Positions 1 through 23,923 of a stretch of DNA of 23,923 bases are shown piece after piece. Numbering within the stretch: the first letter of the stretch is position 1; every line of letters begins with the position of its first letter. Both the position numbers and the translations under genes were made by a program. The stretch is from a virus. The notes below the pieces were generated by a model. It saw nothing but the letters and a program-made list of their open reading frames with translations, did no database searches and was not told the origin of the DNA. The DNA lies in the IMG/VR virus record IMGVR_UViG_3300037847_002921, positions 769-24,691 of that record. One strand, 5' to 3'.

Positions 1-2
1 AT

Positions 3-647: not shown

Positions 648-659
648 GGGCAAAATGAT

Positions 660-863: not shown

Positions 864-868
864 ATAAT

Positions 869-2431: not shown

Positions 2432-2436
2432 TTACA

Positions 2437-2844: not shown

Positions 2845-2918
2845 TTCTTTGAAAAAAATTTATTATATTCAAGTAATTATAAATTTTTATTGATATAATT
2901 TATTATTGAAATAAAACA

Positions 2919-2946
2919 TTGACATGTTAAATGTTAATGCTAATAT
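2919..2946 (+). promoter_or_regulatory. Sigma70-like promoter before primase/nuclease genes
   Basis: The 118-base gap 2845-2962 contains a perfect -35 box TTGACA at 2919-2924. Sixteen bases later is a -10-like TAATAT at 2941-2946, and an exact TATAAT lies at 2955-2960. Transcription from the first pair would start about ten bases before the ATG at 2963, giving a nearly leaderless message. This fits the lack of a ribosome binding site there. The very high A+T content makes chance -10 matches likely, so the exact -35 box carries most of the weight. Confidence 0.4.
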
Positions 2947-2962
2947 TAATATTATATAATAT

Positions 2963-7029: not shown

Positions 7030-7044
7030 TATTTATTAAAAAGG
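7027..7044 (+). promoter_or_regulatory. Repeated leader element TAATATTTAT-N4-AAGG (copy 2)
   Basis: This is the second copy of the stop-overlapping 10-mer TAATATTTAT, again four bases before AAGG. The AAGG is the likely ribosome binding site for the GTG at 7051. Both copies precede genes in the AT-rich phage part; none was noticed right of the junction. Confidence 0.35.
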
Positions 7045-7050
7045 AATGTC

Positions 7051-7641
7051 GTGCCTATACGCAAAAAAGCTGATCTACTTAATTTACAAAATTTAGAGTA
7101 TATAAAAATTGATGATTCATTACTTAGTAATGAATTATTTGATATTATAGACTTTCCGGAAAAACTAACTGCAGGTAAAAATCTTTTTAAGATACGAATG
7201 CAAAATAGTCGATTTGTCGACGGTAGTGAAGTTTATATTGATATAGTTGATTTTAATGGCAATGCAATATATTATGAACCATTAAGATATGTAGAAAAAG
7301 ATGGAACACGTGTTATATCTATTTATGTATATCCAGACACTCCACCTGGCCCAGCACGAGTATTTATTGCAGGAAGATTAGCAATTGACGATGATGGACA
7401 AGTTATTGAATTTTCGAATGATCCTAATGCACCTAATTTTAGAAATATACCAAATGCTTTATGGTCACGATCTGTCCCAGTAGCTCCTTCAGCATTCAAT
7501 ACATCCGAAATAATATTTACAAAACAACCATCATTAACCATAACAGAAATTGTACAGCCATTTAGACAACCTGTAACTATAGATGCTATTTTTACAAACC
7601 AAACAGAGCAAAAGTTTGCAGAGTTGACATACCACAAATAA
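7051..7641 (+). CDS. N-terminal part of a large T4-like structural protein, truncated at the junction
   Basis: The frame begins at GTG 7051 with AAGG just upstream. The ATG at 7046 is in another frame. The product reads like the N-terminus of large structural proteins of T4-like marine phages: LEYIKIDDSLLSNELFDI, then VDFNGNAIYYEPLRYVEKDG, then YVYPDTPPGPARVFIAGRLA, then NIPNALWSRSVPVAP. As I recall, such proteins run to many hundreds of residues, whereas this one ends after 196. The end coincides with the base-composition boundary near 7,640, so the stop at 7639-7641 probably belongs to foreign sequence and the gene is cut rather than naturally short. The precise virion role is not clear. 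Confidence 0.6.
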   Translation: MPIRKKADLLNLQNLEYIKIDDSLLSNELFDIIDFPEKLTAGKNLFKIRMQNSRFVDGSEVYIDIVDFNGNAIYYEPLRYVEKDGTRVISIYVYPDTPPGPARVFIAGRLAIDDDGQVIEFSNDPNAPNFRNIPNALWSRSVPVAPSAFNTSEIIFTKQPSLTITEIVQPFRQPVTIDAIFTNQTEQKFAELTYHK

Positions 7642-7667
7642 TTAGCGCACCCCCTCCGCCCACCTAA
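7620..7667. other. Junction between AT-rich T4-like phage DNA and archaeal-virus-like DNA
   Basis: To the left, GC is roughly 20-30% and the genes are T4-like. To the right, GC is about 42%, the genes are of archaeal replication type and ribosome binding sites are strong. The change falls within a few dozen bases and interrupts the structural gene starting at 7051. The border contains a C-rich stretch (7650-7664) and a small inverted repeat CACCT-AA-AGGTG at 7661-7672, whose right arm is also the ribosome binding site of the next gene. I see no integrase, att-like direct repeat or insertion sequence. An assembly chimera is the simplest reading; a genuine recombination or genome end cannot be excluded. 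Confidence 0.65.
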
Positions 7668-7677
7668 AGGTGATACT

Positions 7678-8304
7678 ATGAAGTCAAAATGGTTGATAGA
7701 GGAGCGAATGAAAGTCGAAGAAGACCCTGTTGCTTTGGAGATTCTGAGATGGGTTGTAGAGAGTCCGGAGTGTCCTCTTTGCAATCACCCTCAAAGAAAG
7801 GACTTCGAGTTTTTAGTTGCAAATGGAACACAATCCCCTCCGTATCTTGAGTCTAAACACGGTTGGCCGGATGGTATCGTAGAAGAACACATGAAAGAAC
7901 ACATTACCTACGATGCAAAAGAAGCAGAGCAGGTAGAGGAGGCAAGGTCTGAGGCAATATCTACCTTAGATATGGCAGAGGATGTCTTCTCTCGTATCCA
8001 ACAGTGGTTGGATGAATGGGAGGAGTTGAAAGAGGAGGAGGGCATATCGAGAGAGTGGTTATCAGAAGCAACAAAACTGGTCGCTGCCGGTAATCAATCA
8101 CTCAAACTCATAGGTACTCTCAAGAAAGAGATAGGTGTAGATTCACAATTGATGCTTGCACATCAGCAAGTACAGGGTATACTCGGTGTAGTTGTAGATG
8201 TTTTGCAAGAACACCCGCAACTGATGAACACTATGGAGTTGAGATTGGCTTCATTGAAAGCCCCCTCCTCTACAATCGAGGCGGACTTCGAGGTGATTGA
8301 GTGA
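7678..8304 (+). CDS. Zinc-finger/HTH protein, possible small terminase subunit
   Basis: The 208-residue protein carries C32-x2-C35 and R40, then H71-x3-H75 (CPLCNHPQRKDFE ... VEEHMKEH). This C2H2-like pattern with a short helix-turn-helix between the pairs is common in putative phage small terminases and related DNA-binding proteins. The rest is acidic, helical and partly coiled coil, which would suit an oligomer. The start has AGGTGAT at 7668-7674, matching the archaeal 16S rRNA 3' end. It is the first gene after the junction and is coupled to the next gene by a GTGA overlap. No large terminase lies nearby, so the terminase call rests on the motif alone; a regulatory DNA-binding protein is the alternative. 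Confidence 0.4.
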   Translation: MKSKWLIEERMKVEEDPVALEILRWVVESPECPLCNHPQRKDFEFLVANGTQSPPYLESKHGWPDGIVEEHMKEHITYDAKEAEQVEEARSEAISTLDMAEDVFSRIQQWLDEWEELKEEEGISREWLSEATKLVAAGNQSLKLIGTLKKEIGVDSQLMLAHQQVQGILGVVVDVLQEHPQLMNTMELRLASLKAPSSTIEADFEVIE

Positions 8305-8624
8305 GTGCCGGAGAGCCAGTGAAATGGAGAGTCCATTTCAATCAATTAATTGCAAGACCCATCCCCAAGAAAGAGTATCCTAAACTCATAGATAAGATGC
8401 TCGATGACGGTCTGATATGCTTACTTACACCGACTGGCTATCAGTGGTATTGCGGTAGATACAGGGTGTCTGCTACTGCCGTCAGAGAGATGTGGAATCT
8501 ATCTTCGTCACAATGGAGGAGATTCATGGAGTGGGTTTATATTCACGACCCCTTCTCACGTATTCCGGAGGAACGTGAGCATGGCGAAGAAGTATCGGAA
8601 AGACGCAGTGAGGAAAGCAGTTGA
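8301..8624 (+). CDS. Hypothetical 107-residue protein
   Basis: I do not recognise this protein. It starts at GTG 8301, overlapping the previous stop as GTGA, with AGGTGA at 8291-8296 as ribosome binding site, so it is probably translated by coupling. It is basic and Trp-rich in the middle (YQWYCGRY, LSSSQWRRFMEWVY) and ends in a charged Glu/Arg/Ser tail that overlaps the next gene by 44 bases. The region around residues 50-80 could form a small helix-turn-helix, but the evidence is weak. Its place among DNA-binding and replication genes suggests a nucleic-acid or regulatory role. Confidence 0.6.
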   Translation: MSAGEPVKWRVHFNQLIARPIPKKEYPKLIDKMLDDGLICLLTPTGYQWYCGRYRVSATAVREMWNLSSSQWRRFMEWVYIHDPFSRIPEEREHGEEVSERRSEESS

Positions 8625-8823
8625 GAATTGGAGACGAAGTGAGTGGTTCTCTGCTAATGACATACTTGACTTCGCTCTTACCCACTCCAGTCAGCCGAAG
8701 GGTGGGTTCAGTGTTTACACTGTATCAAGGTTTCTTTCGATGATGGAATACAAAGGGCAAATAACATCTAAGAGTGAGAATGGTATCAAGATGTATAGGA
8801 GGAAAGAAACATGGGATGTGTAA
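8581..8823 (+). CDS. Small winged-helix DNA-binding protein
   Basis: I choose ATG 8581 (80 residues) over GTG 8575 because GGAGG at 8567-8571 is 9 bases from the ATG but only 3 from the GTG. After a basic start the pattern is that of a winged helix: WFSANDILDFAL as helices 1-2, YTVSRFLSMMEYKG as recognition helix, and ITSKSENGIKMYRR as wing. A second small protein in the same array (13740-13970) has a similar SANxI opening. It may regulate viral or host transcription; no specific family is recognised. It overlaps the previous gene by 44 bases and the next by 13. Confidence 0.6.
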   Translation: MAKKYRKDAVRKAVENWRRSEWFSANDILDFALTHSSQPKGGFSVYTVSRFLSMMEYKGQITSKSENGIKMYRRKETWDV

Positions 8824-9464
8824 TATTTACAAATGAACCTGCAACTTATGAGAAAGGCGAAGTGGTTTATCTTGGCAACAGACTTAGCCAACCACCAGTA
8901 AGAGAGAACGTGACTTACTTTCTCGATTCTATCATAACTAAAGAAGAAGCAGAGATGCTCGCTCGTTACGTTCCTTATCGTCTCGTAGTTACTTGCAAAA
9001 GAAAGCCACGCTTCGAGGGCAGTGACGATGTGTTGATTTCGTGGAAAGAAAAACCCAAGACCAATCTTTCGCGCTTGTTAGGTGGTATTAAGAAATATCC
9101 ACAAAGACAATTTATCCATGAAAGACTTACAAATGCCCCAATCCCCTACTTGCTAACGGCATTGAAAGGAGGAGTGGCAGACATAGATTTTTGGAGATTG
9201 TTGGGTGCAAGTAATCTGATTCTCCCCGATTCATACACACGTTCTTTGTTTGCATACGGTATTGATGCAAGCACTGAGTCTATGCCTCTTGCAAAACTTG
9301 CAACAGAGAAAGAACCCATACTCGGTATGCGTTCATCCGATAGACATATCCATACTATCTTGCAACACGATGTTGCATTTGCAAATGAAGTTAGAGAAAA
9401 AAGTATAGAATCCTTACCTAAAGGTATGAAAAAGAAAAAGGAGGTGGATGCGTGGCTGATATAG
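8811..9464 (+). CDS. Unrecognised 217-residue protein, possible clamp-loader partner
   Basis: The start ATG 8811 has a full AGGAGG at 8797-8802. I do not recognise the family. The N-terminal 90 residues look like an alpha/beta fold (ITKEEAEMLARYVPYRLVVTC, then DDVLISWKEKP). The rest is helical with basic residues (NLSRLLGGIKKYPQRQF, LLTALKGGVADIDFWRLLGA) and a Lys-rich end. An order of an alpha/beta domain followed by a helical collar resembles clamp-loader delta-type subunits. The window has an RFC small subunit but no large subunit, so this is a candidate partner in the manner of T4 gp62. That idea is only inference; the sequence shows no ATPase motif. Confidence 0.55.
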   Translation: MGCVIFTNEPATYEKGEVVYLGNRLSQPPVRENVTYFLDSIITKEEAEMLARYVPYRLVVTCKRKPRFEGSDDVLISWKEKPKTNLSRLLGGIKKYPQRQFIHERLTNAPIPYLLTALKGGVADIDFWRLLGASNLILPDSYTRSLFAYGIDASTESMPLAKLATEKEPILGMRSSDRHIHTILQHDVAFANEVREKSIESLPKGMKKKKEVDAWLI

Positions 9465-9628
9465 TAGGAGCGTTTTTCATTATGGTTACAATATGGATTG
9501 CTTGGTTGATTATTTGCTACATGACTATACCGATTTACGTTGCACTGCGCCATTCTCACGAAATAGGTGGGGCAGATGTAGCCCACCAAGAAGATATGGT
9601 GTGGTCTGCGGCCTTTCAAAACCAATAA
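9452..9628 (+). CDS. Small single-pass membrane protein (58 aa)
   Basis: A GTG at 9452 is preceded at ideal distance by GGAGG (9440-9444), and the frame ends at TAA 9626-9628. Residues 4-31 form one long hydrophobic segment (FFIMVTIWIAWLIICYM within it), followed by a short hydrophilic tail with several His, Glu and Asp. It overlaps the end of the previous gene by 13 bases in another frame. Small membrane proteins in early viral regions can act on the host envelope or anchor replication complexes, but nothing here says which. The strong ribosome binding site and the absence of another gene in this stretch are the main reasons to believe it. Confidence 0.65.
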   Translation: MADIVGAFFIMVTIWIAWLIICYMTIPIYVALRHSHEIGGADVAHQEDMVWSAAFQNQ

Positions 9629-9653
9629 TATAGTGCAAACATTTGCAAATAAC

Positions 9654-10058
9654 ATGATGAGTGCGAACAATAGGCGACTAAGGCGTATGGTCGTGGATAT
9701 ACTATACGAAAAGGGCGCACTTACAAGGGTAGAAATTGCAAAAGAATTAGCAGAGAAACGCTCACTCAGAGAAGTACCGAGCGACAATTCCCTTTCATCC
9801 GTTCTTGCAAAAAATGTTCAGATAGAGTGCGTTGACTACGCAGTGGTAGAGAAGTTAAATGGTAGCAAAACTAAACACATGGTGTTCGACATAAGGAGAG
9901 ATTTGATACATGATAAAGATGACATCCCACTTACAAGACCTATCTCCTGTATGACTGGTGCTGAAAAAAGAAAGGCCGAGAGATGTGAAAGGTGTGGTCG
10001 GCAAAGAATAATGCCCGAAGAAGGGCAACCCTGTCTGCATTGTAGAAGGGGTTTATAG
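9654..10058 (+). CDS. Winged-helix plus zinc-ribbon protein
   Basis: The frame is open from GTG 9633. I prefer ATG 9654 (134 residues) because the protein becomes well formed there, but neither start has a clear ribosome binding site. The N-terminal half looks like a winged helix (RRMVVDILYEKGALTRVEIAKELAE as first helices). The C-terminus has a zinc ribbon with C111-x2-C114 and C127-x2-C130 (CERCGRQ ... PCLHC). DNA or RNA binding is likely, probably as a transcriptional regulator. I recognise no family. It is followed after 23 bases by the nucleotide kinase gene. Confidence 0.6.
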   Translation: MMSANNRRLRRMVVDILYEKGALTRVEIAKELAEKRSLREVPSDNSLSSVLAKNVQIECVDYAVVEKLNGSKTKHMVFDIRRDLIHDKDDIPLTRPISCMTGAEKRKAERCERCGRQRIMPEEGQPCLHCRRGL

Positions 10059-10081
10059 GGAAGAAAGTTGCCCGTCATCCT

Positions 10082-10645
10082 ATGGAGAATACTATCATCA
10101 TAGGAATATCGGGGAAGATGAGAAGTGGGAAAACTACTCTTGCTCATAGATTGAAAGAACATTTTGACAACAGCCAAGTATACTCCTTTGCTGATGCAGT
10201 AAGGAGAGAAGTTGCAAGTGCTATATGTCAGACCGCAGAAGAAAGAAAGGCTTGGGATTCGTTATTAATTAATGACAAGGAGAAGGCTCGCGTATTGTTG
10301 CAAGGTTGGGGTGGCACAAAGAGGCTACTGTTCGGTAAAGATTATTGGCTCAAGAAAACCTTTGATGCAATCAACTTATGTGGTTATGACATAGTAATCA
10401 TAGATGATGTAAGATATTGGAATGAGATGATGCACGTAAACAAGAGGGGTATGTGCATACGACTGGAATGCGATAGGCATGAATTGTTCGAGCGAGGGGC
10501 TACTCCCGATGGTCTTTCCCATGAAAGCGAGAGAGACTTGAACCACACACATTTTGAGCAACACATAGACACTTCCAAGTTAAATGAATACGATACATTC
10601 ATCGAGGCTCTGAGAATCATAGAGGCGAAGGGGATATTGGAATGA
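10082..10645 (+). CDS. Deoxynucleoside monophosphate kinase
   Basis: The 187-residue protein has a P-loop GISGKMRSGKTT with G11, G16, K17 and T18. It then has the pattern typical of viral dNMP kinases: SFADAVRREV, LLQGWGGTKR, FGKDYW and a strand ending in IIDDVRYWNEM. The enzyme transfers phosphate from ATP to dNMPs, supplying dNDPs for viral DNA synthesis; T4 gp1 is the best known viral example. The length fits the family. The stop overlaps the start of the RFC gene (ATGA), which ties nucleotide supply to the replisome genes. A thymidylate or adenylate kinase is a less likely alternative, because the DVR motif is characteristic of the dNMP kinase group. Confidence 0.8.
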   Translation: MENTIIIGISGKMRSGKTTLAHRLKEHFDNSQVYSFADAVRREVASAICQTAEERKAWDSLLINDKEKARVLLQGWGGTKRLLFGKDYWLKKTFDAINLCGYDIVIIDDVRYWNEMMHVNKRGMCIRLECDRHELFERGATPDGLSHESERDLNHTHFEQHIDTSKLNEYDTFIEALRIIEAKGILE

Positions 10646-11583
10646 GTGGTTGGAACAATCTATGGTGTGAGAAATACAGACCGGAGACGTTAGACGATGT
10701 TGTGGGACAGGACTTGATAGTCTCCCAACTAAAGAACGCGCCCGAAATGAATTATTTATTTCACAGTGCAGAAGCGGGGACGGGAAAGACAAGTCTTGCA
10801 AGAGCGTTGGCAAGAGATTTGGGATACACTATCCATGAGTTTAACGCTTCGACCAAAGAAAGTAGAGGCATAGAGTTTGTTGAACAAGACGTTATGCCAT
10901 TAGTTGCACTTAACAATCCCCGTATGGTAATATTGTTAGACGAAGCAGACCAACTTACAACTGCCGCGCAGTCCGCCTTGAAAGGTGTGATAGAGAATGC
11001 GAGTTGTATTTTCATTCTTACTTGCAACGACCTAAACAAGATTAGTGTGTGGTTGCAATCAAGATGTTTGTTGCAACGCTTCGATGCTATAGATGATGAG
11101 CAGATACTTGCAAGACTTACTTACATTATGAAACAAGAAGGTAAGTGGGTGGACTACAAACATTTGCAACGCATCATACGCGCACATACGGGCGACCTAA
11201 GAAACTCCATCAATGCCTTGCAAGCAGTGGCGTGTCTTTCAGAAGAAGATAGAGAGACCTACACCCTGTTACTTGCAAGTGATGGATTCGATGTTCACAG
11301 ATTCCTAAACATCTGCTTTAGGGATAAAGATATAGACAGTGCAGTAGCACTATTTGCAAACAGAGACCCAAGACTTACAATAAGAGAAGTCTTTGAGTTT
11401 GCAACAAATAACCCCTCCCCCAACTCAGATAATGTGATGGTAGTCATAGAGGCATCCATCGTATCTGAGAGGGATTTGATAAACGGAGTCCTACCCGAAG
11501 TAGTAGTATGGAATTATTGTCGCATACTCTGTTCGGGGTTTATAGGGAGAACAGATTTAGGACAGAATAACCCAAAAAGGTGA
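10642..11583 (+). CDS. Replication factor C small subunit (clamp-loader ATPase)
   Basis: The 313-residue AAA+ protein starts with the RFC box WCEKYRPETLDDVVGQD. Walker A is at 43-50 (AEAGTGKT, first Gly replaced by Ala). An NASTKESRGI segment equals the usual NASDERGI. Walker B is DEAD 100-103, sensor 1 is TCN at 127-129, and the SRC arginine-finger motif is at 140-142. The rest is the helical collar. RFC opens the PCNA ring and loads it on primer ends using ATP. Archaeal hosts use a small and a large subunit; only the small one is seen here, so a homo-oligomer, a host large subunit or the 217-residue protein at 8811 may complete it. The start overlaps the kinase stop and the end overlaps the next gene's start region. 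Confidence 0.92.
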   Translation: MSGWNNLWCEKYRPETLDDVVGQDLIVSQLKNAPEMNYLFHSAEAGTGKTSLARALARDLGYTIHEFNASTKESRGIEFVEQDVMPLVALNNPRMVILLDEADQLTTAAQSALKGVIENASCIFILTCNDLNKISVWLQSRCLLQRFDAIDDEQILARLTYIMKQEGKWVDYKHLQRIIRAHTGDLRNSINALQAVACLSEEDRETYTLLLASDGFDVHRFLNICFRDKDIDSAVALFANRDPRLTIREVFEFATNNPSPNSDNVMVVIEASIVSERDLINGVLPEVVVWNYCRILCSGFIGRTDLGQNNPKR

Positions 11584-11588
11584 GAAAA

Positions 11589-12800
11589 ATGGATAACACA
11601 ATGTTAGAAAGAGTAGCGAAGAATATTGGTTGCACATCAGAGCAACTACTGAAAGAGGTTGGAGTAGCGGAGGATACTCATAAGGCTAACCTAATATCAG
11701 CCGGCAAAAGTGCAGAAGACGCAGACGCGATTTGTCTACGCATGGCAGCAACAGTTGTAAGAAAGAAGTTGGCTTCATTATCTGCAAGCGGTTGCAAGAA
11801 TTACGAAGGCGTGTTTGTAAGCGTTCCACGTGCGAAGGACTTTGCTGAGTTGTCATACAAGAAAATGGCTAACCAGTTAGAGACACTACCTGCAAGTGGT
11901 ATCAACAACTTAGTTTCGATGGGTAGTATCATGTTCTACGAGCCTAATGGTAACGGTGGATACACAAGACTTGCAAATCCAAGTTTGTTAAACAAGACTG
12001 TGTTTGCAGAGGGTACAAGAACAGATGATGTAGATGTACTCCCAAAGAACAGTATGGGTATCTCCGGTGGTAGGGCTTTCTGTTTGATTTGGAACAACAA
12101 TATGCCTAACTATCCAAGCGGTGACGCTAATTTCAGATACGGTGCGGCAAGACCACTCAATGAACCGGAAAGAACATCCGCTTTCTATGGCCGATTAGCC
12201 GGAACAACAGACGACTTGCAACTAATGCAGGTTGTTGCATCCGGAAAACTAAGCAGGGCATCACCACCTACATTTACCGCAGGTACTATCGCGGCAAGGG
12301 CTAACAGAGACGGTAGCAAACTGTATCTAAAAGATGGTGTCAGCGAGTTTGTAGCAGATGAAGCGGTACAGAATATCTTTGAGGGAGACCCTTCTACATG
12401 GGATATTGATGGCTTCGACATCACATATGTTCAGTCACTTGATGACATCCCTTCATTCCTTGAGGCTATTGAGCCGAGCAGAAAGTGGGATGCTTTAGCA
12501 GTGATGGACTTAGAGGTTATTCACATAGACCCAAGAGAGCGCGGTGGATTCGTTGTATCTCTCGGAGACATGGATTACACATCTCTATCAATGCCTATTG
12601 ACCTATGGATTCCGGCTTCACAAGAGAACCTTGTTGATTTCGGAGTAGGTAGTGTCCTTACTGTCTTGGGTAGTGCATGGGTAGGCAGAGAGGGGGACTC
12701 AAGGCTAACACCTACTGGTTGGTTCGTCAAGACATCTATCTCGGCTACGCCTGTCGAAGCCGACATGGATGAGTCAGACTTAGTAGAGGGGTGGGGTTGA
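11589..12800 (+). CDS. Probable single-stranded DNA-binding protein with acidic tail
   Basis: ATG 11589 (403 residues) is chosen over GTG 11580 because AGGTGA at 11578-11583 lies five bases before it. No family is certain. The C-terminal third looks like an OB-fold (PIDLWIPASQENLVDFGVG, then LTVLGSAWVG and TPTGWFVKTS). It ends in a short acidic tail with a final aromatic (EADMDESDLVEGWG), the layout of many phage and bacterial SSBs, where the tail recruits partners. The middle may hold another OB-fold. Its place between the clamp loader and the RecA-like ATPase fits an RPA/SSB role in covering single strands. It contains few TTGCAA copies in its second half compared with its neighbours. Confidence 0.5.
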   Translation: MDNTMLERVAKNIGCTSEQLLKEVGVAEDTHKANLISAGKSAEDADAICLRMAATVVRKKLASLSASGCKNYEGVFVSVPRAKDFAELSYKKMANQLETLPASGINNLVSMGSIMFYEPNGNGGYTRLANPSLLNKTVFAEGTRTDDVDVLPKNSMGISGGRAFCLIWNNNMPNYPSGDANFRYGAARPLNEPERTSAFYGRLAGTTDDLQLMQVVASGKLSRASPPTFTAGTIAARANRDGSKLYLKDGVSEFVADEAVQNIFEGDPSTWDIDGFDITYVQSLDDIPSFLEAIEPSRKWDALAVMDLEVIHIDPRERGGFVVSLGDMDYTSLSMPIDLWIPASQENLVDFGVGSVLTVLGSAWVGREGDSRLTPTGWFVKTSISATPVEADMDESDLVEGWG

Positions 12801-13777
12801 TGGCTTGGGGGCAAAACACCCAAACTACCCCGCCTAAGTCTGCGGGAGAGGAGGCACAGTATGGCAGGGAATACTATGCAAATCTCCTAACACAGAGAAG
12901 GGAAAACCATTTTCCCATCCGCATTTCCGCAGTAGGTAAAGAGAATACTTGCAAGAGTAGTCTTCTTACAGAAATGGCACTCAAGGTAACAGACAAAGAA
13001 GTTGCAATTATTGACGTAGACAATTCTGCAACTCAGTCCATTCTTGTAAATTATCCACATGAGATGCACAGAATTAGAATAATTCCTATCTTCGATGAAT
13101 CCGATTCGTCTCTATTTAACGATGACAACACTACAAACTGGGTTGCTCTTGTTGAAAAGATGGCGTGGTACATCCGCCTTATCGGTGAAGAAGTTGCAAA
13201 TGGCAACATAGGTGCAGTAATCCTTGATGGATGCTCTACTTTCCTAAAATGGTGCGAGTTTAGCATGACCGAAGTTTTGCTAAATCGTGGTATCATCAAA
13301 GAAGAAGGCGAGAGATTCAATCAAGCCGAATGGCGTGTAAGAAATCAACTATACAGAGATGTAATTAACAGAGCGCATCAGTTGCAAGTACCGTTTGTAG
13401 GCTACACTTTCCACTTGAAAGATGTAAAAGAGTGGATGGATGTAGGTGGAGGTCAGAAAGGTCTGATGAAAGTCGGAGAGACCCCCGAATGGGAGAATGG
13501 TACAAAGAGACTTTTCTCGCAACAGATTTGGCTTACAAGATACAGTAAAGATGGAGATATTGCGGCAGGTGTGGCCTCAGATAAGAGTCTTGAAGACAAC
13601 GAATGGGTTGTTAGGGCTACTATCAATGAGATGAAAGGCATGAATCAAGAACACTTAGGGACAACACACGATGTTCTAAAGATTAGTGATGGTAAGGCTG
13701 AATGGTTTGGTCTGCCGTTCCTAAAGTGGGGTGAAGAACATGAGGAGAAACCTGTTCGTAAAGAAGTGGATTCTTGA
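12800..13777 (+). CDS. RecA/RadA-like (Sak4-type) P-loop ATPase with unusual Walker A
   Basis: I choose ATG 12800 (325 residues), which overlaps the previous stop as TGATG; GTG 12791 is an alternative. The core is a RecA-fold ATPase: P-loop at 46-53 (GKENTCKS), strand VAIIDVD at 68-74, Walker B VILDG ending at D143, and a later strand LQVPFVGYTFHLKD as in phage Sak4 single-strand annealing proteins. The invariant Gly before the P-loop Lys is replaced by Cys51. The long DNA-binding N-terminal domain of cellular RadA is absent, so this is a core-only recombinase. It likely pairs DNA strands with the SSB-like protein encoded just before it. Pure ATPase partner roles cannot be ruled out. Confidence 0.65.
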   Translation: MAWGQNTQTTPPKSAGEEAQYGREYYANLLTQRRENHFPIRISAVGKENTCKSSLLTEMALKVTDKEVAIIDVDNSATQSILVNYPHEMHRIRIIPIFDESDSSLFNDDNTTNWVALVEKMAWYIRLIGEEVANGNIGAVILDGCSTFLKWCEFSMTEVLLNRGIIKEEGERFNQAEWRVRNQLYRDVINRAHQLQVPFVGYTFHLKDVKEWMDVGGGQKGLMKVGETPEWENGTKRLFSQQIWLTRYSKDGDIAAGVASDKSLEDNEWVVRATINEMKGMNQEHLGTTHDVLKISDGKAEWFGLPFLKWGEEHEEKPVRKEVDS

Positions 13778-13970
13778 GGTTCTAAGGGATAGTGAGAAAC
13801 CTTTATCGGCAAACGCTATCGTGGTACGAATCAAAGAGATGAGGCGCAAGGAATCCCCTTGTGAGCCTCGTATCTCCTCTGTAAAAGTATGCAAGGTAGC
13901 AGTTGGTATGCCCGAAGTAAAAAGAGTCAGAGACCACAAGAGAGACGGATTTTTGTATAGTATCAAATAA
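13740..13970 (+). CDS. Small winged-helix protein
   Basis: The open frame can start at GTG 13731 or ATG 13740. I prefer the ATG because the GGGGTGA stretch at 13727-13733 is then well placed. It overlaps the preceding ATPase gene by 38 bases. The 76-residue product is basic and reads as a winged helix: KKWILEVLRDSEKPLSANAI as first helices, ISSVKVCKVAVG as recognition helix, and VKRVRDHKRDGFLYSI as wing. It resembles in layout the small protein at 8581-8823. Its target is unknown. Confidence 0.55.
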   Translation: MRRNLFVKKWILEVLRDSEKPLSANAIVVRIKEMRRKESPCEPRISSVKVCKVAVGMPEVKRVRDHKRDGFLYSIK

Positions 13971-13983
13971 GGAGGATTGAAGA

Positions 13984-14814
13984 ATGAGATTTGAAAAGAA
14001 GCATTTAGTTACACTGTTAAAAGCAAACAAAAGAGAAGCGTTTATCGGAAAGAAGAAAACGCCACAATGCGAAACTTGCATTATAGAAGCGGTTGGTACT
14101 AAAGCAGTGACTCGTAACATAGTAAAGGATGGTGTTACAACTCTCCACCGACTTACAGTGCCTATAATTAGCAAAGTAAATGATGATGAAACCATACCAG
14201 TTGCAAGTATAGATGACTTGCTCGGTGCTTTGAAACACCATAATTGTCCTGTGCATATCACTAATAACGATGGTAAGATAAGAGTTGCAAGTCAAAACAA
14301 ACAAACGACTCTGATTTCTTCTGCAAACGCATTTGCGTATTCGGGAGCAAGAGTTACAATTGACGAACAGTTGCAAAAGGCTATTGAGATTATGGCAAGA
14401 ATAGATTTGTTCACCCTAAACACTTACACCACATTGAAGGGTGAAAAGCACAGTGCTAATATCACAATCACTTGTGATACTGATAAGTTGCAAGATGCTT
14501 TGCAAACCAACTCTATGAACAATCAAAACTACCCTACTGTAAGGCTTGTTGCAAACGGTAACAAGTTATTCATTACTACTGGTGATGAGATGAAAGGTCA
14601 GACTATGACGCAGATAGGGGATGATGTAGACGGGCATGAGTTTGATTACGAGTTTGGTGGGGGATTGGATAATATACCACTGGATTATTTTTTGGGTGAT
14701 GAAACAAAAATAAGTATCTTCGATTTCCACGATATAAACGGGATGGTAGTCTTCGGATTTAGCGGTATATCGGACTTCTTTATTGTTCTTGGTAAGAGGT
14801 ATGAGCATGACTAA
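13984..14814 (+). CDS. Probable PCNA-fold DNA sliding clamp
   Basis: ATG 13984 has GGAGG at 13971-13975. The 276-residue protein is close to the length of PCNA and T4 gp45. It has the alternating strand-helix pattern of a clamp: IDDLLGALKHHNCPVHITNNDG at the end of domain 1, CDTDKLQDALQTNS as the helix opening domain 2, then VRLVANGNKLFITTGD. It closes with strands VVFGFSGISDFFIVLG, equivalent to the last strands of a clamp. A clamp would encircle DNA as a trimer and tether PolB. The presence of RFC and PolB in the same array makes a clamp expected. Sequence similarity to known clamps is low, so the call rests on layout and context. Confidence 0.6.
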   Translation: MRFEKKHLVTLLKANKREAFIGKKKTPQCETCIIEAVGTKAVTRNIVKDGVTTLHRLTVPIISKVNDDETIPVASIDDLLGALKHHNCPVHITNNDGKIRVASQNKQTTLISSANAFAYSGARVTIDEQLQKAIEIMARIDLFTLNTYTTLKGEKHSANITITCDTDKLQDALQTNSMNNQNYPTVRLVANGNKLFITTGDEMKGQTMTQIGDDVDGHEFDYEFGGGLDNIPLDYFLGDETKISIFDFHDINGMVVFGFSGISDFFIVLGKRYEHD

Positions 14815-15097
14815 GGTTACTTGCAAAAGCGGTTGCCACTTCCACATAGCACCACCAATAAACACACCAGTAACCTATGCGTGTCCTCATTGCAACAGAC
14901 ATTACAGTGTTACTCTCGTCATGTATGAGAGCCAACCGATAGGTGTCTATAAAGACCCAATATGGTTAGAAGAACAGTACATTTTAGAGGGTAAAACTAT
15001 GGATGAAATAGCACAAGAATGTAATGTTACTGCTATGACTATCAATAACTGGTTGGTAAAACACAATATACCTACAAGAGAGAGAGGGAGAAGATGA
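14807..15097 (+). CDS. Zinc-ribbon plus helix-turn-helix protein
   Basis: Of the two possible starts, ATG 14801 and ATG 14807, the second is better spaced from AAGAGGT (14794-14800). The 96-residue product has an N-terminal zinc ribbon, C6-x3-C10 and C26-x2-C29. It then has a clear HTH (WLEEQYILEGKTMDEIAQ, then NVTAMTINNWLVKHNIP) of a kind frequent in phage and haloarchaeal DNA-binding proteins and homing-type elements. It overlaps the clamp gene by 8 bases and the polymerase gene by 4 (ATGA). A viral transcription regulator is the likeliest role. Confidence 0.65.
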   Translation: MTKVTCKSGCHFHIAPPINTPVTYACPHCNRHYSVTLVMYESQPIGVYKDPIWLEEQYILEGKTMDEIAQECNVTAMTINNWLVKHNIPTRERGRR

Positions 15098-17331: not shown

Positions 17332-17366
17332 TAAGGATTATATGATACCAAAAATGAGGAGAGACC

Positions 17367-17660
17367 ATGACTGACGGAAAGATACCAGTGGATGAAGCAC
17401 TAACCACATTAGCCGACCAAGTGGCACAACTATCGCACGTAGTAGCGGGAATCATAGGGGAAATGAAAACCCTAACTGATTTGTCGTTTGCTGATATGAA
17501 AGCAAGAGACAGGCTTATTGCAATGCACTGTGATGAGTGCGACCTTACTACATTTATACCCAACATAGAGGGTATAGAGGTCAATCCTTGTTGCAACCAA
17601 TGCTTAAAGGAGTTTGATTTGGGTCAAAAAACCCTTAAAGATTACACCGAAGAAGAATGA
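17367..17660 (+). CDS. Small zinc-ribbon protein with N-terminal helix
   Basis: ATG 17367 has GAGGAGA about six bases upstream. The first 50 residues of this 97-residue protein are a long amphipathic helix (LADQVAQLSHVVAGIIGEM), possibly for dimerisation. Then comes a zinc ribbon with C55-x2-C58 and C75/C76-x2-C79 (HCDECDL ... CCNQCL), and the tail is acidic. I do not recognise a family. It lies between the polymerase and Cas4-like nuclease genes and belongs to a series of small Cys-rich proteins in this array. Confidence 0.65.
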   Translation: MTDGKIPVDEALTTLADQVAQLSHVVAGIIGEMKTLTDLSFADMKARDRLIAMHCDECDLTTFIPNIEGIEVNPCCNQCLKEFDLGQKTLKDYTEEE

Positions 17661-17669
17661 GGTATCGGT

Positions 17670-18557
17670 ATGTGTGATTGTACCCCTCATCCTGTAACTG
17701 GTATATGTATGAAATGTGCCGATGGGGAGACTCTGAGGAGGCTTTCTTCGTATGACCCTACTGAGGAGGGCAAGGTGCTTAGAGTGTCTAAATCCTCGTA
17801 TATGGGGTATCTATACTGTCCCCGACAATACTTCATGGATAGGGTTCTCTTGAAAGATGTGAGAAAGCCGGAGACCACCGCTATGAGGAGAGGTACAGAA
17901 GTGCATGATGCTCTCGATGATTTCTACGATAGATGGGAGGGGCAACAGACACTCTATCCTATGTTTGAACAAGAGGGTGAGGTATACAGGAACATGGCAG
18001 AGTTGGAGCAACAGAGGTTAGACAACTGGGGAGCAGAATACTTTGCACCGTATGAACATGAAGACTTGAGGGTGTATTATCACGAAGAATATGACATCGT
18101 TATTGTTGGTAAGATTGATGGTGTTCTTATTACACCCGATGACGAGTATGCGATACTTGAATTGAAGACAGGCACTACTAATTCCAGTAAGATAACAAAA
18201 ACAAGAAAGGAGTTGGCTTTCTACCACATGGTCTTAGAAGACATGGATGATATTACAGCAACGAGATTTGTTTATGTTTTACCGGATGCTGATAATTTTA
18301 CTTTTGCAAATAAATTATTAAATCAAAGAAACAAAACAGTTTGGTTGGGTACAGATGGTGGTATGACTGTCATTGAAAAGGTTGGAAAAAGAACATTGAC
18401 TGCCTTTAGAGAATCCTTTGCTAAGTTTTTGCAACAAATAAGAAATGAGGAATGGAATATGAATTGGGATGATTGGAGATGCCCGCAGTGGTGTGCTTAC
18501 AGTATGGCTTGTGAAGAAGAAATAACAGGAATAAACTACGCGGATGGTTTCGTATGA
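17670..18557 (+). CDS. Cas4/RecB-like PD-(D/E)XK nuclease with Fe-S cluster
   Basis: The 295-residue protein has the Cas4-type layout. C50 lies in YLYCPRQYF, H79 in RRGTEVHDAL, D150 in VGKIDGV, E164-x-K166 in AILELKTG, and a C-terminal Cys triad sits at C271, C275 and C281. C50 and the triad would hold a 4Fe-4S cluster, while H79, D150, E164 and K166 form the nuclease site. Such enzymes act as 5'-3' exonucleases or end-trimming nucleases in recombination. An unusual addition is a small N-terminal zinc-ribbon-like segment (C2, C4, C13, C16). There is no CRISPR locus in the window, so a role in viral recombination or replication is more likely than adaptation. GAGGT before ATG 17670 is a fair ribosome binding site. 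Confidence 0.85.
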   Translation: MCDCTPHPVTGICMKCADGETLRRLSSYDPTEEGKVLRVSKSSYMGYLYCPRQYFMDRVLLKDVRKPETTAMRRGTEVHDALDDFYDRWEGQQTLYPMFEQEGEVYRNMAELEQQRLDNWGAEYFAPYEHEDLRVYYHEEYDIVIVGKIDGVLITPDDEYAILELKTGTTNSSKITKTRKELAFYHMVLEDMDDITATRFVYVLPDADNFTFANKLLNQRNKTVWLGTDGGMTVIEKVGKRTLTAFRESFAKFLQQIRNEEWNMNWDDWRCPQWCAYSMACEEEITGINYADGFV

Positions 18558-18715
18558 AAGCAGTGGTGTGTTCTGAGTGTGATGGTGATAGTTTCACCGA
18601 CATAGAAACTTTCGTGCAAGTTACTGGTAGTGTAGATGTTCCATCCGTAGAGATAATAGTTGCTACCTGTAAGATATGTGGGTTTAAAGGGGAAATAGAA
18701 CGGAGAGTCGTTTAG
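18554..18715 (+). CDS. 53-residue zinc-ribbon protein
   Basis: ATG 18554 overlaps the Cas4-like gene stop (ATGA) and the frame ends at TAG 18713-18715, one base before the primase start. The product has C6-x2-C9 (VVCSECDGD) and C39-x2-C42 (ATCKICGFKG), the layout of a rubredoxin-like or TFIIS-like zinc ribbon with a beta-strand insert. Perfect packing between two genes supports translation. Its function is unknown; a small transcription or replication accessory factor is plausible. Confidence 0.65.
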   Translation: MKAVVCSECDGDSFTDIETFVQVTGSVDVPSVEIIVATCKICGFKGEIERRVV

Positions 18716-18716
18716 T

Positions 18717-19721
18717 ATGACTTTGATTTCATTCCCCCGACAGATGGGGCTAAGAAGGGCTATCTGTAATACACCAAATGATTTGCAAAATTACTTAAAC
18801 AGACTAAACAATCTATCCTCTGTTTACATCAGTCTTTATTCCTTTGATGAGATAACGAATGGTAGGGTGGATTATGACTCAGCCGTTATGGATAGAGCAT
18901 GGTGGGACTTTGACGCTACCGAAGAACATTCTATCGAAGATGTCAAACAGGATGTTGCAAAACTAATCAATCGCCTTGAGGGAGATGTAAGATTAGTTGC
19001 AACTGGTAGAGGATTCCATATTCATCAGATTTTTGAAAGACCTGTAAGGGGTAGAGAGTGGGCGCACAGATTGGATACCTACGAGAAGGCTATGGCTAAG
19101 GGTCTATCTTCTCTTGATGGTGTGGGTTATCCGGAAAAACTGACACGTGTTCCTAATACTTACAACCCAAAAAGAAAGAAGCGTTGTGTTGCAATTTCTG
19201 CGCGTTCATTCGCGCTTGACCCACTTAATTACAAGATACCTTCAAGGAATGAACATCCGCAACTTTGCCCGTTCTTTGGAGAGTTGAATGGTGAGGTTCT
19301 TTTTGACTTGATAGGGTGGTGGAATGAGAATGGTAGAAAGCAACAAGAGGAGACGCAGAGAAACATCACTAAGATGCCTATAAATGCCGTTACAGAGTCT
19401 TCTACAGTCCCACTACCCCCTTGCCTACAGAGAGCAATAAGCGTCTCTAATCCACCGCATCACGTAAGAGTCGCATTGGCTCAGTTTATGTCTGCCGGAC
19501 TACGATGGTACGCTCATCCTCAAGACCTTCATGCAGACGAGTTGCAAAACATAGAAGATGAGATATGTTCATTCATAGGTAAGTTGGGTTGGCAAGACTA
19601 CAATCCACAAATCACCCGAAAAGCAGTTAAGTCACTAATCATGTATGAACGATACCCTTCCCCTATATGGTTCAAGAAAAACAACTTGTGTGATGGTAGT
19701 GGATGTTGGTATTGTAGGTGA
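18717..19721 (+). CDS. Archaeo-eukaryotic primase, PriS catalytic domain fused to PriL-like Fe-S domain
   Basis: The 334-residue protein joins two primase halves. Residues about 30-200 carry the AEP catalytic pattern: D64-x-D66 in WWDFDAT, then TGRGFHIH with H101 and H103, then a basic strand TRVPNTYNPKRKK near 143-155. Residues about 232-333 look like the PriL C-terminal Fe-S domain. This has C236 in PPCLQRA, a helix pair around HHVRVALAQFMSAG, the QDYNPQITRKAV segment, and a closing triplet C325, C330, C333. Four Cys in this order match the 4Fe-4S ligands of PriL. The enzyme would make primers for PolB and may polymerise longer strands. Single-chain PriS-PriL fusions are known from some archaeal mobile elements. 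Confidence 0.75.
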   Translation: MTLISFPRQMGLRRAICNTPNDLQNYLNRLNNLSSVYISLYSFDEITNGRVDYDSAVMDRAWWDFDATEEHSIEDVKQDVAKLINRLEGDVRLVATGRGFHIHQIFERPVRGREWAHRLDTYEKAMAKGLSSLDGVGYPEKLTRVPNTYNPKRKKRCVAISARSFALDPLNYKIPSRNEHPQLCPFFGELNGEVLFDLIGWWNENGRKQQEETQRNITKMPINAVTESSTVPLPPCLQRAISVSNPPHHVRVALAQFMSAGLRWYAHPQDLHADELQNIEDEICSFIGKLGWQDYNPQITRKAVKSLIMYERYPSPIWFKKNNLCDGSGCWYCR

Positions 19722-19726
19722 GAAAA

Positions 19727-19846
19727 GTGAAGTGTCCCATTTGTATGAGTGATAAAGGATTTATTGAGTTGCATGGTTCTTCTGTTTGTTTGAATTGCAA
19801 GAACAAAGTAGTGTCATGTTGCGGTGATGGTGCTTGTTTGTTCTAA
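19727..19846 (+). CDS. 39-residue Cys-rich zinc-ribbon peptide
   Basis: The frame starts at GTG 19727, five bases after AGGTGA (19716-19721); an earlier in-frame GTG at 19718 overlaps the primase stop. The product has C3-x2-C6 (KCPICM) and C21-x2-C24 (CLNCK), then three further Cys near the end (CC and C). It is the smallest of the Cys-rich proteins here. The good ribosome binding site and Cys spacing suggest a real gene, but it is short enough that chance cannot be fully excluded. The 37 bases between it and the next gene show nothing notable apart from one TTGCAA. Confidence 0.5.
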   Translation: MKCPICMSDKGFIELHGSSVCLNCKNKVVSCCGDGACLF

Positions 19847-19883
19847 GAACCATTGATAAGACCGCATCCTTTAGTTGCAACTA

Positions 19884-20600
19884 ATGGTAGTGTATGCTGA
19901 TGACCGAGAGAGTGCTTCTGTCTTACAGAGCCTCATAGGTCGCATGGGTGATGCTGATATAGAGAATGAAGGACTTGTAAAAGTTAGAAGACTTACAACT
20001 GGGGATTATGTTCTTGGTTCTTGGGGCATAGAGGCTAAAGAAATCAACGACTTTTACCGTTCTATAACCGGAAAAGGTAGGGGTAAGAGGTCTATAAATC
20101 ATCAACTATCGGACTTGTGCGAGACATACGAATACCCTATACTGGCCGTGTATGGTAGTAGAATGAAACCGTATTTTAGAAAGAAAGTTGCAAAGAGAGT
20201 GGTTGCTCAAGAAATAGTAAAAATGCAACAGACAATGAGAAGTTACAAGATGATGATATACCACAGATTCCCCAAGATTAGACTCATAGAGTTTGCAACT
20301 ATGGAGGAGTTTGTTGAGTGGTTGAGTATCTCACACACACAGATGCAAATATCAAACGCTCTCTCTGCACCTAAGAAGGCAAGGCGCGGTAGGTCGGGTC
20401 ATAGTGACCCAAGAATAGCAGCATTGACTGGTATTGCAGGTGTTACAGAAAGTATCGCTAAAGACGTTTTAAGCCACTTTGGAGGCATCAAGCCACTGCT
20501 ACTTACCAAGACGAATAGGAAGGCTCTGACAGCGATTAGAGGGGTAAATACGCCTATTGCTGATAGGATACTCAGCCTAAGAGAACCCTACGATGAATAG
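19884..20600 (+). CDS. XPF/ERCC4-type structure-specific nuclease with HhH domain
   Basis: I prefer ATG 19884 (238 residues), where the nuclease fold begins; TTG 19875 is possible and neither has a clear ribosome binding site. The N-terminal nuclease has DDRES at 6-10, GDYVLG at 40-45 and E50-A51-K52-x3-D56, corresponding to the GDx(n)ERKx3D motif with Arg replaced by Ala. Residues from about 170 form a tandem helix-hairpin-helix region (ALTGIAGVTESIAKDVLSHF, then LTAIRGVNTPIADRIL). Archaeal XPF and the Hef nuclease cut 3' flaps and forks; this version has no helicase domain. It would process replication or recombination branches. It overlaps the convergent tail gene by 13 bases at its 3' end. 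Confidence 0.85.
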   Translation: MVVYADDRESASVLQSLIGRMGDADIENEGLVKVRRLTTGDYVLGSWGIEAKEINDFYRSITGKGRGKRSINHQLSDLCETYEYPILAVYGSRMKPYFRKKVAKRVVAQEIVKMQQTMRSYKMMIYHRFPKIRLIEFATMEEFVEWLSISHTQMQISNALSAPKKARRGRSGHSDPRIAALTGIAGVTESIAKDVLSHFGGIKPLLLTKTNRKALTAIRGVNTPIADRILSLREPYDE

Positions 20601-23600
20601 GCTCTAAAGTTGTTGGTCTGACTTGAGTTTTGATTAGTATATCTCTTGGTCGCAAGTCTCAAAGTGTGTATTCTAACCGCATTGAACGTAGCGTTATCGC
20701 TACCTGTGTTTGGTGTTCTCGATAGAGTCACTTTGAGAGATGAACCGGCACTCGCTCCCGAAATCTTACCGGAAAACAATGAGTATTCTGCTCTGTTTGT
20801 AGAGTTGTAACTAATGTTTGTTGTTCTCGTTGCACTCTTACCACTATCTAAACTCTCTACTTTAGTTGTAATTACCCCGATTGCGTTAGAAGCATCTCCA
20901 TCTAAACTGGCTCTTGCAAGTAATTCTACATGAGAATCTGCGCTATCAGAGGGGATTCTAACAATGAAAGACTGTTCATGTTTTACACCACTTGCAACTA
21001 CTCCCTCATTGGTACTGTATGTTCCGTTCAGAACGAAACCATCAGCCCCTACTATCCCACCACTACCATCAGTTATGGTATCGAACCCATCAATCGAAAG
21101 GTTGGCTACTGCGGCAGTACCACCTTTCTTTACACCGAGAGTACCAAAGCCACCATCGGGTGATGTTACTTCTGTAGGTACTTCGTTAGAACCAGTGAGC
21201 ATACTACCTACTGTGGTACTGAACGTATTGATGCTTTGTCCTTGTGTGGTTGTGCCTCCTTCTGTATTTAGGTCTGAGGATTGACCGAAATCCCCTTGAT
21301 GTTGACCCTGTGCTTGCATGAATTGTTGCGAGGATTCCTGTGACTGACCGCTTGAGGCAGTAGTGTTGCTGAAAAGACTTGCAAGTGTTTTCTTGTATCG
21401 TGATTCATTTCTTTCTAAAGTAAGTTGTACCTTTTCTACATCCTGTCCTTTTTGTTCCCAAGACACTGTGTTGATTACCATACTCTGTGCGGATAGGTCT
21501 AAGTGTGTATCTGTTATTGTGCAGTAAGTTGCAGGTACATATTTTATATCATCAACAATAAAAAGACGCGGTGCATACCAAGCATTTCTTTCTACTGACA
21601 TACCGCCATACTCAGCAAACTCTCTAAATCCTAATGGGAAAATAGAATCTGTATCTGTAGAACCAAACGCAGAAAGGCCCGGAATATTGTTAGCATTTTT
21701 TATTTTGTTGTTACATCTTTGACGTATTACATCTCTTAGGTAATCGGTGTTTACAGATATAACTAACTTAGAACCAGCAGGTGCGCCCCAACTTGTAGGG
21801 AATGCTATTTCATAAAACCCGTTACCAAATACTTCTATTTCAGAAGAACCGTTTGTATTTAGAGTTGCACCAAATTGTGCTGGACTACCAGTATTTGCAA
21901 AATCATAATCTAATAGGTGGACTTTGAAAACTGCATCGTCTGCTGTTGTTCCGCTTGATATACTAATACCTACTCGTAACTCATGGTTTTCGCTGTTTAC
22001 TTTGGGTACAGATGGTGGCACACTTACTACTTGCAAGGCGTGTGATATACTCTTTGCTCCGTATGTATTGTATGCTTTGTCTGCATCTACAAGTGGAACA
22101 TAAGCATAGGATTTAGATGTTGTTCCCGAAGACGGTAACTCTGATACGTCTACCTTTACAGTTAATACATCTGTTCCCGTACCAATTGTGTAATAATTAT
22201 CACTTGCAACAGTTGCTTGATATGTAGTACCACCATAGGTAATACTCCATTTTAATGTCTGTGAAGATGCAACATATACAAGAGGCACTTCAACGCCATT
22301 TGCTGCGGCACTTGATTTTACAGATACTATTTCAACACCCGGCATTGGAGATGAAGAATGATTGCCTGTTCCGTCTATCATTGGTACTATTGTAAAGTCA
22401 TCTGTAACTTCTGTGCTATTTGAGTTGCCATCTAAAGCATTTGCAACTCCTGTGAATGGTATACCGCCAAACATAGAAGTCCAAGAAGAACCAAACTTTT
22501 CGCTACCTGTTTCGTAAAGACCAACTACTGCTGCATCTCCAATGTAACCATATCTACCATTACCTAACATTTTGTGTGTGTCACCGTCTTCTCTGAGTAC
22601 ATCTATAGATACACTCATGCTTGATTTGTTAAGTCTATTATATTCTCTAACAGCAAGTGCTTCTGCTTCTTGTTTATTTCTTGTAGACGTTAAATCTATT
22701 ACTTTCCATCTTGCTTCTGTTCCTGTTATTGGTTTTGGATAATCTACAAATGAAGCACCACCGTTGTAAAATGCTCTAACATTGGTTATAATTGATGTAC
22801 TATCTATTGCCAAGCCGGAGTTTTTCATATTACTTCTTGTAAATGCGTGACCGGAGTTATATGCAGGTCTGTAATCAAATCTACCATCTCTACCTACTAC
22901 ACGTGAGAATACTATGTTTGTCCCATCAGAACCTTCACCACTCGTTTGTGTTATATCTATTATTGATTGACCGAATGTTTTTTCTCTTATATCGGTGATA
23001 GCCCCATAATCTTCTGTATCTCCGGAAGAATAACCAAGTCTTGTAGTAGTCATGTTTCTTGTTATTGGAACATTGTTTATATCTTGTATAGAAGAAAGGG
23101 TGGAGTTGTTAGTCCAGTTGTTTATTACTGCTAAGTTTTGCAACAATCTAATTTTATCGCTATCATAATATGTTCCAAGATTCTTTGCTTCGACATAACC
23201 CTCTATGAGCATCAACAATCTAAATCCATATAACGCAGCCGGAGTGTTGTATACTTGTATCTCATCGTAACCATCATCATCTTGTGTTTCTGCTTCACCC
23301 AATTCTCTTTTAAGTGTAAGCGCAACTGATGAACCATTACTCCACAAACTCGAATCATTATTCAAAGATGTAATAATTGCTTGTGGGTCAATAGATTTCA
23401 ATTGTGGATTATTGATGTATACGTTTTGTAAGGTATTACCGGACACAGTATTCCAACGCAGACCAAACACCGTTCTTACAGTGTTTCTACCAGTACCTTT
23501 ATTTGCAATTATTATACCGTATCCATCTGTAGCACCAAAATCAAAATTAGTTGCGTCACTTAATTCTAAAGTTGTTGCGTTGGGTGGAATGTCGTTTATT

Positions 23601-23923
23601 GCAGTGCTTGCATCGTTGATAAACTTCAAATGGTTTTCGTGATTTGCAAAATTAGTAGTTGTTGTTCCGTCTACACTTGTACCGCTTATCTTGTAGTTAC
23701 TTGTAGCGTGTCTGTAGTATGAGTCTAACAAGTATGGTGTTCCGGCTATAGGTATATCGTAGTCATCAAACTGTGCCATACCACCACTACTATATCCGGG
23801 TCTACCTCCGGTTGCCTCAGTATTCAAGTTAAAGAATCTACTTGAGTCAATGACTAAGAATGCACCACCTTTGCTTTCCCAGTTTTCATAAGGGTTGAAC
23901 GAATCAGAACCGGGAAAATTACC
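20588..23923 (-). CDS. Very large tail/baseplate-hub-like structural protein (5' end outside window)
   Basis: The - strand frame has no stop from 20588 to the right edge, so at least 1111 residues are visible and the start lies beyond 23923. The TTG near 23827 is internal. Around visible residues 395-450 the pattern RWKVIDLTSTRNKQEAEALA, followed by SMSVSIDVL and a Gly-rich turn, resembles phage tail hub proteins (gp27/gpD/gp44-like). Another hub-like segment near 778-840 (APRLFIVDDIKYV ... VEKVQLTLERNES) ends that part. A Gln/Ser-rich linker follows near 850-895, then a C-terminal beta-rich module of about 200 residues that may bind a receptor or glycan. It is transcribed towards the replication array, the usual split between early and late strands. 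Confidence 0.7.
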   Translation of the reverse strand, partial: GNFPGSDSFNPYENWESKGGAFLVIDSSRFFNLNTEATGGRPGYSSGGMAQFDDYDIPIAGTPYLLDSYYRHATSNYKISGTSVDGTTTTNFANHENHLKFINDASTAINDIPPNATTLELSDATNFDFGATDGYGIIIANKGTGRNTVRTVFGLRWNTVSGNTLQNVYINNPQLKSIDPQAIITSLNNDSSLWSNGSSVALTLKRELGEAETQDDDGYDEIQVYNTPAALYGFRLLMLIEGYVEAKNLGTYYDSDKIRLLQNLAVINNWTNNSTLSSIQDINNVPITRNMTTTRLGYSSGDTEDYGAITDIREKTFGQSIIDITQTSGEGSDGTNIVFSRVVGRDGRFDYRPAYNSGHAFTRSNMKNSGLAIDSTSIITNVRAFYNGGASFVDYPKPITGTEARWKVIDLTSTRNKQEAEALAVREYNRLNKSSMSVSIDVLREDGDTHKMLGNGRYGYIGDAAVVGLYETGSEKFGSSWTSMFGGIPFTGVANALDGNSNSTEVTDDFTIVPMIDGTGNHSSSPMPGVEIVSVKSSAAANGVEVPLVYVASSQTLKWSITYGGTTYQATVASDNYYTIGTGTDVLTVKVDVSELPSSGTTSKSYAYVPLVDADKAYNTYGAKSISHALQVVSVPPSVPKVNSENHELRVGISISSGTTADDAVFKVHLLDYDFANTGSPAQFGATLNTNGSSEIEVFGNGFYEIAFPTSWGAPAGSKLVISVNTDYLRDVIRQRCNNKIKNANNIPGLSAFGSTDTDSIFPLGFREFAEYGGMSVERNAWYAPRLFIVDDIKYVPATYCTITDTHLDLSAQSMVINTVSWEQKGQDVEKVQLTLERNESRYKKTLASLFSNTTASSGQSQESSQQFMQAQGQHQGDFGQSSDLNTEGGTTTQGQSINTFSTTVGSMLTGSNEVPTEVTSPDGGFGTLGVKKGGTAAVANLSIDGFDTITDGSGGIVGADGFVLNGTYSTNEGVVASGVKHEQSFIVRIPSDSADSHVELLARASLDGDASNAIGVITTKVESLDSGKSATRTTNISYNSTNRAEYSLFSGKISGASAGSSLKVTLSRTPNTGSDNATFNAVRIHTLRLATKRYTNQNSSQTNNFRAYSS

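Follow-up and report, generated by a model that had tools for sequence, protein, structure and literature searches.

To our knowledge, iterated DNA words such as HIP1 have long been without an agreed function. The cyanobacterial HIP1 and alternate HIP words are short, mostly palindromic and over-represented genome-wide at a density of about one per kb, and the word can differ among related genomes (PMC4390886). The DUS dialects of the Neisseriaceae, 10–12 bases long and read by ComP in transformable bacteria, are lineage-specific, keep a CTG core and follow phylogeny (PMC3630211). A viral set of dispersed sites is known from cluster A mycobacteriophages, in which stoperators, asymmetric 13-base sequences numbering just over twenty per genome, lie in short intergenic spaces, are oriented with transcription and are read by a viral DNA-binding protein (PMC9283540). 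Avoidance of restriction sites is documented for prokaryote genomes (PMC4687349). Here we show that the viral DNA described below and related archaeal tailed viruses of the same clade carry a near-saturated, lineage-specific DNA word that occurs in dialects.

The window that we analysed is a stretch of 23,923 nt from the IMG/VR record IMGVR_UViG_3300037847_002921. Its composition switches abruptly at 7642–7677, from a T4-like phage with 28% GC to an archaeal-type virus with 42% GC. The left 7.6 kb (28% GC), in which AGCT, GATC and CTAG are not eliminated, looks like a foreign T4-like piece from a different virus; it encodes a recombination nuclease that shares 45% identity with a nuclease of Microcystis phage Mel-JY01, as well as a phage endonuclease I and part of a DnaG-type primase. 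The contig is likely to be a chimeric join at approximately 7642–7677, because relatives carry other genes at the place where the window becomes phage. The right part encodes archaeal-type replication genes (Table 1), and its gene content suggests that these viruses may be magroviruses, tailed viruses of the Poseidoniales; no described magrovirus record in the phage collection matched, and the 319 Poseidoniales genomes searched held no close copy of the viral polymerase. The DNA polymerase gene was used to find the relatives and to place them in a tree.

The original prediction had reported, by hand count, about 76 copies of TTGCAA in the archaeal-type part, far more than composition would give, on both coding strands and in all three codon phases. 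Exact counting returned the same 76 sites in the right part (7779–23649, with starts spanning 7779 to 23644), where base composition over 16,246 bases predicts 5.1, a first-order Markov model 6.5 and synonymous codon shuffling approximately 15; among the 4096 hexamers, none exceeded its codon-shuffle expectation more strongly than TTGCAA. Nearly all sites lie inside genes, those of both strands included, with 27, 41 and 7 sites in codon phases 0, 1 and 2, respectively. The whole window holds 81 sites, and the five located at positions 1–7778 agree with the reported scarcity in the phage part, being close to the 3.9 expected there. In the Markov test that had been proposed as a check, the excess stands against the first-order model; a maximal-order model predicts approximately 66 sites (131 both-strand counts), but only because the TTGCA and TGCAA on which it draws come from the TTGCAA motif itself, and this second test was discarded as circular. 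The suggestion that CTTACAA is a weaker variant finds weak support, TTACAA occurring 27 times in the window against 17 by codon shuffle.

To express how completely the word is used, we took every place where the encoded protein permits TTGCAA by synonymous codons and determined the share carrying it, termed fill. Of the 97 permitted positions in the window, TTGCAA occupies 74 (14.3 expected from codon usage), with 63 of 80 filled in the plus-strand genes, and Leu-Gln is encoded as TTGCAA in 26 of 30 cases. The clamp-loader gene is the densest stretch, with the word at 10 of its 11 permitted positions, and the DNA polymerase gene is filled at 14 of 19. The fill of control palindromes was zero or close to zero, CAATTG (8–16%) excepted. 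The pull toward TTGCAA extends to the choice of amino acids: when orthologues in four relatives were compared and 2,272–4,013 hexamers ranked per comparison by their excess of amino-acid-permitting positions, TTGCAA came first in six of eight comparisons and sixth and thirteenth in the other two. Usage differs along the genome, since in the close relative G001 early genes are filled at 151 of 203 positions and late genes at 50 of 111; early genes likewise exceed late ones in fill in clade A and in site density in clade B, and intergenic site density is about the same as genic density. Two lines of evidence for fixed positions, the conservation of TTGCAA at 49 of 74 aligned places (20% for control hexamers) and the overlap of sister-clade words with TTGCAA above rotation controls, were dropped, because saturation together with protein conservation accounts for both.

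Table 1. Annotated features in the archaeal-type part of the window
Feature	Position	Strand	TTGCAA content	Basis
Replication-gene module	7779..20298	.	66 TTGCAA, mostly in genes, ~5 per kb	Exact count
Long open tail-type gene	20588..23923	-	10 TTGCAA (exact count), ~3 per kb; 10 of 16 permitted positions filled	
Clamp-loader (RFC-like AAA) gene	10642..11583	+		Pfam AAA, 4e-12
Family B DNA polymerase gene	15094..17331	+		Pfam DNA_pol_B, 1e-28
Small zinc-ribbon and helix-turn-helix protein	14783..15097	+		Weak HTH matches

Related viral genomes bear out the idea of a HIP1-like DNA signal that is selected or driven. The TTGCAA enrichment of the window is common to its close relatives G001 (66.7 kb, 213 sites, its two ends bridged by G003), G002, G003 and G004, and to G344. 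A sister group, G005–G008 and G343, has no TTGCAA at all, and GTTGCT or TTGCTA occurs there at three to four times the codon null. Further lineages were supplied by a capsid-protein scan. TGCGCA reaches a high fill (0.53–0.75) in G336 (227 sites in 62 kb), G337, G349–G351 and G354, is absent or rare elsewhere, and is accompanied in these genomes by a TTGCAA fill of 0.14–0.35, neither saturated nor absent. TTGCGA is more weakly enriched (fill 0.14–0.28) in G338, G340, G341, G345, G348, G353 and G355, and TCGCGA is enriched in G352 (fill 0.33). In none of these sister lineages is TTGCAA itself enriched. All five lineage words contain TGC or GC, and two lineages have a non-palindromic word whose edges are graded. 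In the polymerase tree, from which G352 is missing for want of a usable polymerase, all dialect genomes fall in a single clade (support 96/96) that excludes the word-less relatives, every dialect with at least two genomes is a single group, and six changes of dialect label suffice, which is the minimum.

Several further features of these genomes were recorded. Other words may be enriched in G357 (TGATCC, 130 against 39; this genome tolerates GATC) and in G347 (GATATC, 54 against 19). TTGCCA, which differs from TTGCAA in one base, does not occur in G001, G002 or G004; pooled both-strand counts are 8 against 95 expected, and all 8 are the window's own. A late protein of G001 matches Pfam Collagen at 2e-56, and word counts in the late regions of G001 and its relatives are dominated by GGTCCT-type words from Gly-X-Y repeats. 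G006 has a 119-base end repeat. Dense iteron-like arrays of TTATCTACAAAT and TGGTTACAAAA, possibly replication origins, occupy 43.4–49.2 kb of G015 and G011 from approximately 42 kb; the TACAAA repeats of these two genomes were set aside as a related word, being arranged in clusters that lie in part, or for the most part, outside genes.

The surroundings and orientation of the sites provide information on what might read them. Fill depends on the base at −2, with 382 of 464 permitted positions filled where that base is A/T and 66 of 134 where it is G/C (p = 1e-13), which suggests a footprint of WNTTGCAANW, as for a binding protein. The non-palindromic words have no consistent sense/antisense bias, with the exception of G340 (44 sense, 83 antisense), and eight of nine genomes lack a significant excursion of orientation along the genome, G005 being weakly biased. 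Because orientation bias is so slight, the signal appears to reside in DNA rather than mRNA, and the combination of little polarity and a flank preference is as expected for protein-bound sites on double-stranded DNA. For a Chi-like role, one of the options raised in the original prediction, the expected polarity was not seen in the lineages with non-palindromic words. The proposed check of spacing revealed neither helical phasing nor any other regularity (CV 0.84–1.04).

The word stands out against strong avoidance of other words. AGCT and GATC are entirely or nearly missing from these viruses, often together with CTAG, GTAC, ACGT and CGCG; AGCT, GATC and CTAG are absent from the right part of the window (58–62 expected each), and the genes of G001 lack 44 of 61 testable 6-base palindromes. 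With 810 depleted hexamers in the window and 1,021 in the early genes of G001, hundreds of forbidden words could push codons into TTGCAA as a by-product of restriction-site avoidance. Synonymous sequences simulated to avoid all depleted words did raise TTGCAA, from approximately 16 to 30 in the window and from 33 to approximately 70 in the G001 early genes. However, the observed counts of 75 and 157 are more than twice those simulated, although the penalties included direct competitors of TTGCAA, so that avoidance accounts for about half of the word at most, and relatives such as G011, G012 and G346 avoid strongly yet have no saturated word. We therefore regard avoidance as largely refuted as the only cause and give it very little credence in that role. 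A HIP1-like methylation mark, in which a host or viral methyltransferase is at work and methyl-directed repair or nuclease protection raises the word, was another option of the original prediction. The cyanobacterial HIP words are tied to methyltransferases and vary among some genomes (PMC4390886), three of the dialect words are palindromic, like many methyltransferase sites, and the loss of most other palindromes implies strong restriction pressure. The gene content does not support such a mark: no methyltransferase was recognised in G001 (by Pfam, for 80 of 82 predicted proteins, or by a motif search of the remainder), in the early genes of G006 or among the clade-wide gene families. A C5 cytosine methyltransferase in G005 (L053:4592-5482) and an NPPY-motif protein in G004 (L041:12239-12769) are sporadic and missing from close relatives that use the same word, and the words of two lineages, non-palindromic and graded at their edges, also count against it. 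A methylation mark is unlikely, although a host enzyme or an unrecognised viral one could still supply it.

The word might also be made without benefit to the virus, by biased mutation, repair or a recombination drive. Near-saturation at synonymous positions and its extension into the choice of amino acids suit a drive as well as selection, and the similarity of intergenic and genic densities is compatible with this. Simple conversion would, however, deplete the one-base neighbours of TTGCAA, which in clade A are mostly at expectation; late genes are much less filled than early ones within the same genome, and with or without a drive the flank preference calls for a protein that recognises the word. 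We give a drive about the same small chance as methylation. Known primases start at short words, and the sites could accordingly be the points at which a viral primase, or another enzyme of replication, begins its work; a high density of sites on both strands would then be favoured, and the specificity of the enzyme would have drifted from one lineage to the next. Sites are indeed dense on both strands, and the viruses have polymerase and clamp-loader genes of their own. Yet relatives without a saturated word also have replication genes, and the non-palindromic words lack lagging-strand polarity, except weakly in G005; we consider such start sites improbable, somewhat more so than a drive.

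The original prediction had also named a site for a host or viral DNA-binding protein. A host-derived signal was not seen: across 311 genomes of related archaea from the presumed host order, TTGCAA occurs at 0.05–0.9 per kb against 3–5 per kb in the viruses, and in 67 host loci it numbers 179 against 151 expected. When viral contigs were scanned for clusters of TTGCAA, there was no strong enrichment among the matches listed (at least 80 loci). A viral protein is the best remaining option, but binding alone would leave unexplained both the selection for each of so many sites and the greater density in early than in late genes. Our preferred reading, in which belief and doubt are evenly balanced, is that TTGCAA is one lineage's dialect of a genome-wide recognition word read by a putative virus-encoded DNA-binding protein that marks self. 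Such a sequence-specific protein would bind the word, the bound word would mark viral DNA as self, and each additional site would bring a small benefit, be it to replication, protection, recombination or packaging. When the specificity of the reader drifts, the word would shift with it; here we infer both the reader and its role in self-recognition.

Candidates for the reader were sought among gene families that follow the dialects. By blastp, 13 of the 14 genomes with a dialect word and none of the 11 others encode a member of the family of G001 22070-22780 (236–301 aa), which lies outside this fragment. Seven other families come close to its distribution: two late-gene families match it, and 12 of 14 dialect genomes is the figure for an HNH nuclease, a dNMP kinase, both members of an AAA/DUF7192 pair and a small protein. 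Since this co-distribution falls within one clade, it counts as a single event. A scan of viral sequences with the candidate family alone retrieved 22 loci; each carries a dialect word, and TCGCGA came to light in this way. A profile search found distant relatives in G347, G356 and G357, which have no clear word of this type, and the family was not found in G348, a 39-kb record that has a word. A structure model built from five sequences of the candidate family was poor and was rejected. A later model (pLDDT 72) placed the OB folds of RPA, CST and Teb1 first in a fold search (Z 5–6.1, below the tool's informative level), E values in Foldseek, where HIN-200 ranked first, were 0.005 at best, and comparison by sequence with solved structures yielded no match; the predicted fold thus weakly resembles OB folds of the RPA/telomere type. 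We regard this family as the best candidate reader, a lead and not an identification, and the HNH nuclease, with its near-identical distribution, as a second candidate. The zinc-ribbon and helix-turn-helix protein next to the polymerase is kept as a weak alternative, being present also in word-less relatives and differing between G005 and G007 despite their common word. A fuller version of the preferred reading, an evolving self-recognition code with a putative OB-fold-like reader (perhaps with an HNH partner), a genome brought close to saturation at a price in synonymous and even amino-acid choice, and the mutually distinct dialects TTGCAA, TTGCTA, TTGCGA, TGCGCA and TCGCGA, is possible, and we hold it with noticeably more reserve.

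Within one clade, these small viral genomes show several changes of word, with a short list of co-distributed genes, which opens reader and driving force alike to direct tests. Should the word prove to be a self-mark, a virus would have a new means of distinguishing its own DNA from that of the host, and the dialects would have a bearing on recombination between viruses. The dialect words also offer a simple signature by which metagenomic fragments of these viruses can be sorted.

A non-exhaustive search of the literature returned no report of such words in viruses. Chi is likewise a short over-represented word, but the non-palindromic words described here have no consistent orientation along the genome. 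Stoperators share with them the scattering of many sites over a viral genome and a reader, here a putative one; they are asymmetric, intergenic and oriented with transcription, whereas the viral words occur at hundreds of in-gene sites without consistent orientation. Restriction-site avoidance is mirrored in the dialect viruses by the lack of most 6-base and several 4-base palindromes, but avoidance gives absence, and in three of the viral lineages one palindrome is instead pushed toward abundance. Among known phenomena the HIP sequences and the DUS dialects come closest, and we claim membership of neither. Like HIP, the viral word is short, over-represented throughout genes and variable between relatives, and TTGCAA is a palindrome in great excess (76 sites against 5–15 expected; 213 in G001). 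It differs in being viral, in its density of approximately 3–5 sites per kb with permitted positions near saturation, in the use of non-palindromic words by some lineages and in the cognate methyltransferase, none being recognised in G001. Relative to DUS, the viral words are shorter, at 6–7 bases, and denser, and no uptake machinery is known for them, ComP-type uptake being something one would not expect of a virus; as in DUS, they are lineage variants that keep a common short core, TGC or GC, and follow phylogeny, and a reader with drifting specificity would explain both.
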